Source: Tsukamurella pulmonis (GTDB lineage: Bacteria; Actinomycetota; Actinomycetes; Mycobacteriales; Mycobacteriaceae). From it: DNA of 64,000 bases. This document shows, one piece after another, positions 42,374 through 54,921 of this stretch. The stretch lies in the NCBI RefSeq assembly GCF_900103175.1, contig NZ_FNLF01000002.1, forward strand, positions 4,106,136-4,170,135, given 5' to 3'. Within the stretch, counting starts at the first letter, position 1. Every line of letters starts with the position of its first letter. Position numbers and translations under genes: made by a program. A model generated the notes under the pieces. It made no database searches and was not told the DNA's origin. It saw only the letters and a list, made by a program, of their open reading frames with translations.

Positions 42374-43094
42374 CGGGCGTCCCTTCCAGTTGTAATAACG
42401 ACGTTAAGTTAACAGCGTTATTACAAGGCGCGTCAACCGCCCAGGGGAGGAGGTGTTCCGGCGCGGAGGTTGAGACGCCGCCGAGGCGGTTCTCGCCCAG
42501 CGTGTGCACGAAGCGCGGGCCGAGCAGCGCGAGCTCTCGCGTGTAGGCCTCGGACCAGCCGCCGAAGGGGACGTGCGCGAGGTACTCGTTGCGGAAGCGG
42601 TCGTCCTCGGAGACCTCGGTGGCACAGAAATCGGGGATGGCGAGGTCGACGACGGGGCCGCCGCGTTCGACCTCCGCCATCACGAGCGGGGCGTTGCCGC
42701 CGAGGAATTCGTCGATGACCCAGCCGTCCTCGCCGAGCCACATAGAGTAGCGCACCTTGGCGACGACGTGTTCGGCGCGGCGGACGATCTGCCCGGCGAC
42801 GAGCGCGTCGAGCTCGCGCTCGGCCTCGTAGCGGGTGCCGCTCACGGCAGGTCCCTTGGCCGTCATGGTCCCGGTGGTCACACCGTCGAGGGCGTCGACG
42901 AGCGCACCGGGATCGTCGATCAGCTCCGACGGCGCCGGCCCCTGCACCCGCACGCGCACGGCGTAGCCGTCGGCGGCGAACAGGTAGGCCTGGACGATCA
43001 GCGTCGGAGCGGGGTCGAGCGCAGCGGCTTCGGGGACCTCGCGCACGAAGAACTTGCGCTCGAACTCGAAGTCCCCGAAACCCTGCTCAGACAT
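42084..43094 (-). CDS. CYTH-domain protein whose frame runs on into the MMPL gene
   Basis: From ATG 43094 (MSEQGFGDFEFERKFFVREV). CYTH signature ExExK at FEFERKFFV, then YAVRVRVQG, AKGPAVSGTRYEAEREL, VAKVRYSMW, and WVIDEFLGGNAPLVMAEVER. The domain binds triphosphates through basic and acidic tunnel residues (inorganic triphosphatase/CyaB family). A normal end would be expected near LGENRLGG (about residue 205), but no stop occurs until 42084, so the frame crosses the MMPL operator and overlaps the MMPL gene by about 290 bp in another frame. The tail (residues 210-336) is low-complexity Arg/Gly/Ala and probably not native. Confidence 0.75.
   Translation of the reverse strand: MSEQGFGDFEFERKFFVREVPEAAALDPAPTLIVQAYLFAADGYAVRVRVQGPAPSELIDDPGALVDALDGVTTGTMTAKGPAVSGTRYEAERELDALVAGQIVRRAEHVVAKVRYSMWLGEDGWVIDEFLGGNAPLVMAEVERGGPVVDLAIPDFCATEVSEDDRFRNEYLAHVPFGGWSEAYTRELALLGPRFVHTLGENRLGGVSTSAPEHLLPWAVDAPCNNAVNLTSLLQLEGTPDDRRTHPLRRAPREGRAAAGRDPAGGSGPRGRRCRRQTAGRRLRRSAGRGDADLRSHGRRLRPRRPAAGAGRLGAAGPGGLGGRLRPPPGRAPARR
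42390..42426 (-). promoter_or_regulatory. Palindromic operator upstream of the MMPL-tetR operon
   Basis: TTGTAATAACG (42390-42400) and CGTTATTACAA (42416-42426) are perfect inverted repeats 15 bp apart, with a second palindromic GTTAAGTTAAC between them. The block ends 16 bp before the MMPL start, and is the only AT-rich patch for kilobases. Likely TetR binding site overlapping the promoter. Confidence 0.8.
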
Positions 43095-51590: not shown

Positions 51591-51664
51591 GTGCCGAGTG
51601 TCCCACCCCGGTGTCGGCGCGCGCCGCTAAGGTTGAGGGGAATCACGCGAGCGGGGAGGTGCCC

Positions 51665-52552
51665 TTGTCCGACCAGGCCAACGCCGACGAACGTCGGCAG
51701 AGTGCGGCGGGCGAAGCGAGCGCGGACGCCGCTCACTCGCTGCTGCTCGAGAAGGAGGGCCGCGAGGACGGGCAGGTGCCGCCGGATCTCACCGCGGCCG
51801 CGTTCTTCGACGTCGACAACACGATGGTGCAGGGCGCGTCGATCGTGCACTTCGCCCGCGGCCTCGCCGCGCGCAACTACTTCTCCTACTCCGACCTCGC
51901 CTCCGCGGCGTGGGCACAGGCCAAGTTCCGGCTCACGGGCAAGGAGAACAGCGACGACGTGGCCGCCGGCCGGGAGAAGGCGCTCTCCTTCATCGCGGGC
52001 CGCTCCACCGAGGAGCTGAAGGCCGTCGGCGAGGAGATCTACGACGAGATCATCGCCGACAAGATCTGGCCGGGCACCCGCGCGCTCGCGCAGATGCACC
52101 TCGACGCCGGCCAGCAGGTGTGGCTGGTGACGGCCACCCCCGTCGAGCTGGCGCAGACCATCGCCGACCGGCTCGGCCTCACCGGCGCGCTGGGCACCGT
52201 CGCCGAATCGCAGGACGGGGTGTTCACCGGCAAGCTGGTCGGCGACATCCTGCACGGCCTGGGCAAGGCGCACGCCGTCCGGTCGCTGGCGATCCGCGAG
52301 GGCCTGAACCTCAAGCGCTGCACCGCGTACAGCGATTCGCACAACGACGTGCCGATGCTCTCCCTGGTGGGCACGGCCGTCGCGATCAACCCCGATTCGG
52401 ACCTGCGCGACGTCGCGCGGGTGCGGGGCTGGGAGATCCGCGACTACCGCACCGGCCGCAAGGCCGCCAAGATCGGCGTCCCCACGGCCATCGGCGTGGG
52501 CGCCGCGATCGGCGGCGCCGCCGCGCTGATCAAGCACTTCAGCGACGACTAG
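51665..52552 (+). CDS. HAD-family phosphatase, SerB1-like (haloacid dehalogenase IB)
   Basis: 295 residues from TTG 51665, with GGGGAGG 5 nt upstream; GTG 51659 is an alternative. HAD motif [21 protein letters not shown] (DVDNT, about residue 47), motif [22 protein letters not shown], motif III Lys in GKAHAVRSL, and motif [22 protein letters not shown]. The family is the PSPase-like group called SerB1 in mycobacteria. The C-terminal hydrophobic [20 protein letters not shown] suggests membrane association. The substrate is a phosphomonoester, not certain to be phosphoserine. Its 3' end abuts an AbiEi/DUF559 cassette. Confidence 0.9.
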
Positions 52553-52605: not shown

Positions 52606-52725
52606 GGGCCCGACGGTGCCGCACCCTCCGACGGCCGTCGCGCGGCGCGGACCACAGTCCACAGATCGATCCCGCTTCTTCATAGCGTTGCAGCGTTATG
52701 AAGAGTCAGGACCGATAGCGAGAGG
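52606..52725. repeat. Left terminal inverted repeat of cassette 2
   Basis: Includes CTTCTTCATAGCGTTGCAGC at 52674-52693 and GACCGATAGCG near 52710-52720. Its inner end overlaps the last 20 bp of the cassette gene (stop at 52706). Confidence 0.85.
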
Positions 52726-53629
52726 AGCCGTCGAGGAGCAGCCCGAACGGATTGAGGGCGTCGTGGAGCTTGTTCCGGAGACGATCCGGCTCTTCGCAGT
52801 CGTTCCAGTCCCAGTGCGTCGGGTACAGATTCCGCCCCATCAGCAGGCTGTCGCGTTGAATCCGCCGCTCCGAGGTGAAGCCGTCCCTCTGCTTGCCCTT
52901 GCCGTCGAACTCGCCCACCACGCGTTCGGCCCACAGGAAGTCGACGCGCGCCTCGAGCGCGCCCGCCTCGTTGAAGAATTCCCGCTGCAGCTCCGGGCGC
53001 GGGATCTCGGGCCATTTCAGCATCAGCGCCCTGCTGCGGGATTCGCCGACCGATTCCGACAGCGGCGACGCCTCCCCCATCGCTGCGAGTAGATTCGCGG
53101 CACCACGCCGCCGGCCGAGCCGGTCGATCGCCGCCTCCAGCTCCTCCCGCGTGACACCCATCCGCAACGCCGCGTCCAGCGCGCAGACGGCCGCCACGAA
53201 GTCGCCGGCCAGCGCGAGGTCGAGCGCCGTTCGCGCGATCGACGTCACCGTCACTCCGTCGACCACGACGACGTCCTCCGCGTCGAGCCGCCGCACGTGC
53301 AGCCGTCGGCGCCCGCGCTTCGTCCCGCCACGCGCGCCGTCACACGTGAAATCGACGGTCTGCCAGTCGGAGTTCAGCACCTTCATGCCCAACACCGCCG
53401 CAGCCGCCGCATGACTGAGCACCACGGAGTCCCCCGATCGCTGCGCCGCCGCCAGCGCGCTGATCCGCAACTCGTCCCACGGCGGAAGCCTCGCCCCCAG
53501 GTGGTAGGCCCCGCGCCACACGCGGGTCACCGCGTTCTTCTGCTGCCAGAAGCGGATCTGCCGGTCCGTCGCCCCCAGCGCCACCAGTTCCTCGCGATGC
53601 CGGAACTCGACCGGCTCGTCGTCCGCCAT
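52706..53629 (-). CDS. AbiEi-type HTH plus DUF559 (Vsr-like) protein, cassette 2
   Basis: 307 residues. N-terminal winged HTH of AbiEi type (about 8-55: REELVALGATDRQIRFWQQK, NAVTRVWRGAYHLGARLPPW), middle domain with SGDSVVLSHAAAAAVLGM and DGVTVTSIARTALDLALAGD, and C-terminal DUF559/Vsr-like segment EARVDFLWAERVVGEFDGKG (about 232-251), with the VD...E-x-D-G-K arrangement of PD-(D/E)xK-like nucleases. Same architecture as the cassette 1 protein but weakly similar, so the two are distant relatives. No AbiEii partner. The stop lies inside the left inverted repeat. Function as restriction, repair or mobility nuclease is unknown. Confidence 0.85.
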   Translation of the reverse strand: MADDEPVEFRHREELVALGATDRQIRFWQQKNAVTRVWRGAYHLGARLPPWDELRISALAAAQRSGDSVVLSHAAAAAVLGMKVLNSDWQTVDFTCDGARGGTKRGRRRLHVRRLDAEDVVVVDGVTVTSIARTALDLALAGDFVAAVCALDAALRMGVTREELEAAIDRLGRRRGAANLLAAMGEASPLSESVGESRSRALMLKWPEIPRPELQREFFNEAGALEARVDFLWAERVVGEFDGKGKQRDGFTSERRIQRDSLLMGRNLYPTHWDWNDCEEPDRLRNKLHDALNPFGLLLDGSSRYRS

Positions 53630-53715
53630 ATGAACACCCCCGTCGGCGCCCCCACGCCGTCCACTGCATTCTGGCTCAACGGTGGGAATCCCGATGCGGT
53701 TCCCCGACTCTCCGG

Positions 53716-53835
53716 CCTCCCGCTATCGGTTCCGCTTCTTCATAACGCTGCAGCGCTATGAAGAAGTAGGACCGATCTGTGGACCGCGGTCCGCCCGGAC
53801 GGCGGCTGCCGGCAGGCGAAGGCACCGTCGGGCCC
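53716..53835. repeat. Right terminal inverted repeat of cassette 2
   Basis: Reverse complement of the left repeat; contains TTCATAACGCTGCAGCGCTA at 53738-53757. It starts 87 bp upstream of the gene start, so it probably includes or precedes its promoter. Confidence 0.85.
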
Positions 53836-53853: not shown

Positions 53854-54921
53854 CTAGAAGTCCTGGAAGATGTTCTTCCGGCGCGCGAGGATGCGGTAGA
53901 GCGACTGCTGGATGGTCTCGCGGACGTTGTCGGTGAGCTCGAAGACCACCATCGGGTCGTCGGCGTCGGCCTCGGTGAAGCGGTCGGTGGCGATGGGCTC
54001 GCCGAACTCGATGTGCCACTTGGACGGCAGCGGCACCATGCCCAGCGGGCCCAGCCACGGGAACAGCGGCGTGATCGGCGCGTAGGGCAGGCCGAGCAGC
54101 CGCGCGACGGGCTTGACGTCGGCGAGCATCGGGTAGGTCTCCTCCGCGCCCACGATCGACACGGGGATGATCGGCACCTGCGCGCGGATCGCGGCCGTCA
54201 CGAAACCGCCGCGCCCGAAGCGCTGCAGCTTGTACCGGTCGCGGTAGAGCTTGCCGATGCCCTTGAAGCCCTCGGGCCACACGGCGACGAGCTCACCGCG
54301 GGTGAGCAGCGCCTCGGCGTCGGCGTTGCAGGCGACGGTGGCGCCCAGCTTGCGCGCGACCTCGCCGATGAACGGGTACTCGAAGGCCAGATCGGCGGCG
54401 AGCAGCCGCAGATGCCGCTGCTCGGGATGGTTGTCGTGCACCGCGACGGCGGACATGAGCCCGTCGAGCGGGATGACGCCGGAGTGGTTCGCCACCAGCA
54501 GCGCGCCGCCCTCGACGGGGAGATTCTCGGCGCCGGTGGTGTCCACGCGGAACCACTTGTCGTAGACGGGCCGCAGCGCCGGCAGGAAGACCGCGTCGGT
54601 CAGGTGCGGATCGAAGCCGAACGGGTCGATGTCGTAGTCGCCGGTGAGGCGCTCGCGGACGAAGGCGGCACCGTCGACCACCGATTCCGCGGCGCGCTCG
54701 CGCCAGCCCGGACCGGGCTCCCCCGGCTGGGCGGCGGCGATGTAGTCGGGGTTGAGGGCGTGCACCGTGGCCTCGCGGCGCGGGGCCGACGATGCCGGCG
54801 TGCCGGTCAGCGCGGACGGGTGCCGCTGCTGGGCGCGCTCGCGCCCCTCGGTGCGCGCGGTGTCGATGGACACGGGCAACTGCAGCACCTTCGCGTGCTG
54901 AGAGCCTGATGGGTTGGTCAT
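53854..54921 (-). CDS. Lysophospholipid acyltransferase (PlsC family)
   Basis: 355 residues. A long charged N-terminus is followed by a PlsC domain: motif I LLVANHSGVIPLDGLMSAVA (NHSGVIPLD, a HX4D variant, about residues 147-155), motif III VAVWPEGFKGIGKLYRDRYK (EG), and PIIPVSIVGAEETYPMLADV. It transfers acyl groups to lysophospholipid or similar acceptors at the membrane. Corresponds to M. tuberculosis Rv0502; overlaps the epimerase gene by 4 bp (ATGA), so the two are coupled. Confidence 0.9.
   Translation of the reverse strand: MTNPSGSQHAKVLQLPVSIDTARTEGRERAQQRHPSALTGTPASSAPRREATVHALNPDYIAAAQPGEPGPGWRERAAESVVDGAAFVRERLTGDYDIDPFGFDPHLTDAVFLPALRPVYDKWFRVDTTGAENLPVEGGALLVANHSGVIPLDGLMSAVAVHDNHPEQRHLRLLAADLAFEYPFIGEVARKLGATVACNADAEALLTRGELVAVWPEGFKGIGKLYRDRYKLQRFGRGGFVTAAIRAQVPIIPVSIVGAEETYPMLADVKPVARLLGLPYAPITPLFPWLGPLGMVPLPSKWHIEFGEPIATDRFTEADADDPMVVFELTDNVRETIQQSLYRILARRKNIFQDF

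Follow-up and report, generated by a model that had tools for sequence, protein, structure and literature searches.

A gene for an AbiEi-like protein with a predicted Vsr-type nuclease fold, bracketed by palindromes, points to a small and possibly selfish genetic unit in Actinomycetes

Between two converging genes of Tsukamurella pulmonis lies a gene whose ends are marked by inverted copies of a palindromic sequence. Inspection of a 64,000 nt stretch of this genome (hereafter the window) led to the original prediction that this locus is a small mobile or selfish unit whose own nuclease could act on the palindromes. Do the gene and its repeats belong together, and could the encoded protein be what holds them together?

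The two arms of the locus (Table 1) form an ungapped inverted pair of 79 nt that is 86% complementary. The repeats had been described as 120 bp long, with an identical outer 15 nt and a nearly identical inner 77 nt, and both the length and the degree of identity prove too generous. A BLAST alignment of 52606-52725 with 53835-53716 extends over 121 columns at 82% identity, and its outer 15 nt (GGGCCCGACGGTGCC) represent a motif common in the genome rather than the end of a unit. Specifically, a count over both strands of the window gives 34 instances of CGACGGTGC (about 2 expected from base composition), and a CGACGGTGC/GCACCGTCG pair is present in the 92 nt gap of a relative (G002) whose junction is without the unit. 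We therefore place the limits of the unit near 52647 and 53794. The word CGACGGTGC itself looks like a piece of a widespread terminator or intergenic motif.

Table 1. Features of the palindrome-bracketed unit and its surroundings (window coordinates).
Feature	Position	Strand	Basis
Flanking HAD-family phosphatase	51611-52552	plus	TIGR01490, 3.9e-57
Common intergenic motif, external to unit	52606-52620		CGACGGTGC count in window; G002 gap
Downstream-end repeat, overlaps stop codon	52647-52725		79-nt inverted repeat, 86%
Outer tag GGACCACAGTCC, downstream end	52649-52660		sequence
Main palindrome, downstream end (TGCA centre 52689-52692)	52665-52716		palindrome scan
Gene, AbiEi-like/Vsr-fold protein, 307 aa	52706-53629	minus	
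Upstream-end repeat, about 90 nt ahead of start codon	53716-53794		79-nt inverted repeat, 86%
Main palindrome, upstream end (TGCA centre 53749-53752)	53725-53776		palindrome scan
Outer tag GGACCGCGGTCC, upstream end	53781-53792		sequence
Inverted partner of intergenic motif, external to unit	53821-53835		inverted pair; G002 gap
Flanking acyltransferase (start inferred from adjoining gene)	53854-54909	minus	PF01553, 9.1e-17 on enclosing ORF

Within these narrower limits, the other predicted features of the layout hold. The inverted match between the flanks of the gene scores 75, compared with a maximum of 32 and a 99th percentile of 28 for 390 sliding windows across the rest of the 64 kb. A near-palindrome is found in each arm, and single-stranded DNA corresponding to these regions folds with z scores of -3.6 (52660-52725) and -5.5 (53716-53780). 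The only credible gene between the arms encodes a 307 aa protein, its stop codon falls within the left arm, and the neighboring phosphatase and acyltransferase genes converge upon it. In the order palindrome, gene, palindrome, the whole cassette takes up only about 1.15 kb. Elsewhere in the window, whose GC content is 71%, an operator-like, AT-rich and near-perfect palindrome (TTGTAATAACG...CGTTATTACAA) is located at 42390-42426, and a second AT-rich palindrome with TTTGTACAAA-like arms at 2750-2807.

The protein was originally described as a winged helix-turn-helix joined to a Vsr-like nuclease and named AbiEi/DUF559. Pfam and NCBIfam return no match to it, which leaves the DUF559 name without a basis; among 12 relatives, Pfam finds AbiEi_4 in three, AbiEi_3_N in one and nothing else. 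Both parts of the structural description fare better. PADLOC AbiEi models match the protein (up to 8.4e-17), and the N-terminal two thirds of its predicted structure (pLDDT 92) align by Foldseek with AbiEi (6y8q, E 1.2e-4) and Rv2827c (1zel, E 3.1e-4), with low TM-scores of 0.30-0.43. The predicted structure also matches the Vsr/I-Bth0305I nuclease fold, and residues E196, D230, E240, D242 and K246, which are active-site-like by sequence, are invariant among relatives. The model thus supports a protein composed of an AbiEi-like winged-helix part and a nuclease fold of the Vsr or I-Bth0305I homing-endonuclease type. The five gene copies found at the window junction are under purifying selection. 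No transposase was found in the unit among its ORFs or Pfam matches, as had been predicted.

The type IV antitoxin AbiEi (6y8q) and Rv2827c (1zel) share the fold of the N-terminal two thirds, and members of the AbiEi family bind inverted repeats (PMC7319586). The unit differs from them in having an additional Vsr-fold nuclease, a repeat downstream as well as upstream, and no adjoining toxin gene. No AbiEii nucleotidyltransferase toxin gene lies next to the window gene, whose immediate neighbors are the phosphatase and the acyltransferase, and for this reason we rejected assignment to the AbiE toxin-antitoxin pairs.

Of 246 genomes sampled from the class Actinomycetes, 176 carry a relative of the gene. 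For each homologous gene, we scored the best inverted match between its upstream and downstream flanks and accepted scores of at least 27; six of 142 loci were left out as too short. A matching flank pair is present at 127 of 176 tested loci, compared with three of 172 far-flank controls, and such repeats therefore accompany other genes of this kind, a point on which the predicted mobility had been made to depend. The pair is recovered in each set of loci, namely protein searches of the same genome and its relatives (24/32), class-wide best loci per genome (24/28), named genomes (48/76) and further class-wide loci (31/40). Retaining one member per cluster gives 117/161 at 95% identity, 89/122 at 70% and 49/64 at 50%. 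The 49 loci below the cut-off include 18 with scores of 22-26 and 31 with lower scores. When flanks of different genes are compared, 17 of 690 match, and 12 of these come from the class-wide best set, which contains many same-site relatives. A stricter ungapped score is reached by 116 of the 176 loci, none of the 172 far flanks and 15 of the 690 different-gene flanks; in earlier controls, the rates were 1.2% (347 shifted windows) and 1.4% (812 cross pairs). Direct flank matches reach the cut-off about as often as inverted ones (70% versus 71%) because the repeats are palindromic, and the inverted layout is consequently firm mainly for asymmetric arms such as those of the window unit.

The anatomy of the repeats was derived from 119 non-redundant left arms of loci with a pair. 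Strongly palindromic sequences are found in 70 of these (median length 62 nt; none after shuffling), with TGCA at the center in 22 of the 70. Furthermore, a 9 nt word recurs at a distance of 19 nt in 36 of the 119 arms and at 20 nt in 26, compared with none at either distance after shuffling. By eye, units at four loci of class genomes (L131, L126, L255, L259) differ in their inner palindromes and have in common an outer TGATCACGTTCA-like stretch that is found across genera.

Throughout the family, the upstream repeat ends a median of 100 nt before the start codon and the downstream repeat lies a median of 4 nt past the stop. These positions are also what one would expect of a resident, autoregulated gene without mobility, in which the upstream palindrome serves solely as operator and the downstream palindrome as a bidirectional terminator. 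Autoregulation of AbiEi and Rv2827c does rely on promoter-located inverted repeats (PMC7319586), and long residence and purifying selection fit this explanation as well. It accounts for the upstream repeat, but not for the downstream copy, whose sequence is gene-specific in a manner unlike general terminators (the 17/690 matches between flanks of different genes), nor for several solo copies in convergent gaps, a setting in which one would not look for a promoter (L013, L015, L292, L293), nor for the opposite orientations at shared sites and the second junction described below. We consider this explanation unlikely.

In 98 of 112 cases, the two arms of a unit are closer to each other than to those of the nearest relative. 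Between units, similar repeats (at the cut used) occur in none of the pairs with less than 60% protein identity, in 21% of pairs at 60-70% and in 74% of pairs at 70-97%. These data suggest that both ends change together, and that they do so fast. Across all pairs, the correlation between protein identity and palindrome similarity is weak (Spearman 0.09 for the whole protein, a value reached by none of 300 permutations; 0.15 for approximately the first 65 residues).

Inverted repeats that lie about 1 kb apart recombine readily. It is conceivable, therefore, that RecA-dependent recombination and template switching at hairpins keep the ends alike and flip the unit, with a passive gene whose nuclease has another job such as repair or defense. 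Changes that occur symmetrically in solo palindromes, as judged by eye, could also stem from template switching. However, this process leaves unexplained the family-specific palindrome found at the two ends of each gene, the 19-20 nt register of the words and the existence of solo copies at unlinked places, and we regard it as improbable.

The original prediction held that mobility would be unlikely if related genomes always carried the gene at this position with the same flanks. At the phosphatase-acyltransferase junction, the unit is present in five of 16 Tsukamurella genomes, in each case at the same site and in the same orientation. Among the genomes without it, eight show a gap of 15-198 nt; in the remaining three, the junction is filled differently or lacks an acyltransferase within reach. 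The gene is also not confined to this position. A second junction (junction B, beside a protein kinase gene) carries relatives that are 66-68% identical and have different palindromes in G004, G005 and G006; the relative in G002 is broken. Inspection of this junction by eye in eight of the 16 genomes reveals one palindrome of that type without the gene in G015 and another in G014, one palindrome resembling the family of a paralogue in G000, G001 and G012 (with a search match in G000), about 34 nt only in G011, and no clear palindrome in G003. At two loci, L089 (G014) and L090 (G002), the gene is split into several fragments that lie in different frames, as would be seen if an element were decaying. 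The convergent gap between the HAD phosphatase and acyltransferase genes contains about 1.36 kb of other DNA in G004 (L105), 462 nt in G005 and also differs in G006, and this junction may collect inserts.

Carriers of the window junction and of the second junction are interleaved on a tree of a neighboring locus, and each of the nine carriers has the gene at only one of the two junctions. This distribution could result either from movement or from repeated loss. Among homologous loci with both flanks matching, the orientation of the gene is the same in 122 pairs and opposite in 42. These pairs are not independent: as we read them, the 42 fall into nine sites, at some of which the repeat pair goes undetected in certain members. 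No fresh insertion was caught among the loci compared, and no target duplication was seen by eye at the second junction.

Copies of the palindromes are also found apart from the gene, in the same and in related genomes, where a search for the repeat had been proposed as a check. The window family has two solo places in its own genome, and 13 solo copies of it were read across eight Tsukamurella genomes. In that genome, two paralogues of the gene are each associated with a separate palindrome family, with one and seven solo places. The solo copies in L290-L293 start or finish 2-26 nt from a stop codon according to a simple ORF call, with L292 and L293 in convergent gaps, and the copy in L289 is farther from a stop codon. 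Two solo copies fold less well than the unit ends (z of -2.3 and -1.4). One solo site is common to six species, and one solo palindrome lies at a site that is taken by the gene in relatives. A gene-flanking pair coexists with several solo copies in Rhodococcoides kyotonense (G286) and in G299, G308, G309 and G312, and two of the solo sites are common to five genomes. One solo palindrome is absent from G300, where the flanks of the site are 95-97% identical to those in G308, and no target duplication was seen by eye at this site. In L288 of the host genome, a paralogue's family is represented by two closely similar palindromes (1461-1568 and 2318-2389) about 0.8 kb apart, and no relative of the gene was detected in the intervening DNA.

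The outer tag faces outward at all ten unit ends examined in the window family and is present on one side only in 11 of the 13 solo copies. Retention of the polarity of one end is what would be seen if the palindromes were miniature elements spread by another enzyme, with the gene as cargo trapped between two of them. A search of the host genome for one transposase family, Y1_Tnp, gave no match at E <= 0.001, whereas the same search was positive in five of 14 control genomes, and three gene families of one genome each have their own palindrome. Both observations make this explanation very improbable.

The closest known plan is that of REPtrons and TIRtrons, in which a Y1 transposase gene lies between REPs or terminal repeats (PMC3733652, PMC8266576). 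As in those systems, a single gene is enclosed by inverted palindromic ends (in the window and at 127/176 family loci), related palindromes occur elsewhere in the genome, often near the 3' ends of genes, and ends and protein appear to co-evolve. The differences are that the window protein is AbiEi-like with a Vsr fold, not HUH/Y1, and that the palindromes are about 62 nt long and contain a word repeated at intervals of 19-20 nt. The three families of the genome have a small number of solo copies (2, 1 and 7 places), whereas typical REPs reach a higher copy number. The proposed likeness to REP/RAYT pairs with a different protein is thus borne out by the palindromic bracket and solo copies in a host genome without a Y1_Tnp match. 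Membership of the REPtron or RAYT group was rejected on the enzyme: Y1_Tnp is absent from the genome in the search above and from the protein at E <= 1 in Pfam.

EDxHD homing endonucleases such as I-Bth0305I share the predicted nuclease fold, and the unit differs from them in its AbiEi-type DNA-binding part. A classical homing gene interrupts its target, whereas the unit has a whole palindrome at each end. At junction B, G005 has the gene and G015 a lone palindrome. A Vsr-like domain is likewise present in VsrA, a DUF559 nuclease of Caulobacter investigated in the context of host fitness and DNA damage (PMC12907096); in the text covered, neither 'palindrom' nor 'inverted repeat' appears. The literature searched, mainly open-access papers, contained no description of an AbiEi/Vsr-type gene paired with bracketing palindromes, in line with the earlier statement that no described element of this form was known to its author.

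Taken with the predicted fold, these observations incline us slightly towards a REPtron/TIRtron-like cassette whose protein would read and nick or cut its own border palindromes, and which host repair would then copy, flip and homogenize. By analogy with AbiEi proteins, which recognize inverted repeats and control their own expression (PMC7319586), the N-terminal part is likely to bind the palindromes. The protein would most likely bind as a dimer or tetramer, with four words in two inverted pairs over about 62 bp, and the upstream palindrome is probably also the operator of the gene. The nuclease would act at both ends. The EDxHD nuclease I-Bth0305I acts as a dimer on a target of nearly 60 bp (PMC3943268), and the closeness of this length to the 62 nt median favors, again by analogy, a protein that nicks or cuts its own palindromes. 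After such a nick or cut, host repair or recombination could copy the cassette, flip it or, on rare occasions, move it to a new site, and would keep its two ends alike. It could also leave single palindromes with the outer/inner polarity of one end scattered elsewhere, often at the 3' ends of genes. The cassette would then be a REPtron or TIRtron with an unrelated nuclease, or a free-standing homing gene that targets its own border.

The age of most sites, the failure to catch an insertion or a target duplication, the weak correlation between protein and palindrome, the small number of solo copies, the weaker folding of two of them, the restriction of strong palindromes to 70 of 119 arms and the 49 of 176 loci below the cut-off count against this cassette reading. 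Much of the pattern reflects old residence, given the constant site and orientation, the purifying selection and the solo site common to six species, and many copies look like old residents. Judged from sequence, there is somewhat less than an even chance that these units form a new class of mobile elements, widespread in Actinomycetes, in which an AbiEi-type reader joined to a homing-type nuclease spreads, flips and homogenizes itself through palindromes of about 60 bp and seeds solo copies at gene ends. We regard the pairing of this enzyme type with these repeats as new, and its standing as a mobile-element class hangs on the predicted activity.

The evidence points to a small, possibly selfish and previously undescribed genetic unit. 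The AbiEi-like gene is very common, with relatives in the 176 genomes noted above, and the window member goes unnamed by Pfam and NCBIfam. If each such gene comes with its cognate palindromes, the unit would be a selfish or domesticated element that uses an unrelated nuclease to solve the REP/RAYT problem. It would also offer many natural protein-palindrome pairs from which a DNA-recognition code could be read out, and a direct test of the relationship between homing nucleases and transposon ends.
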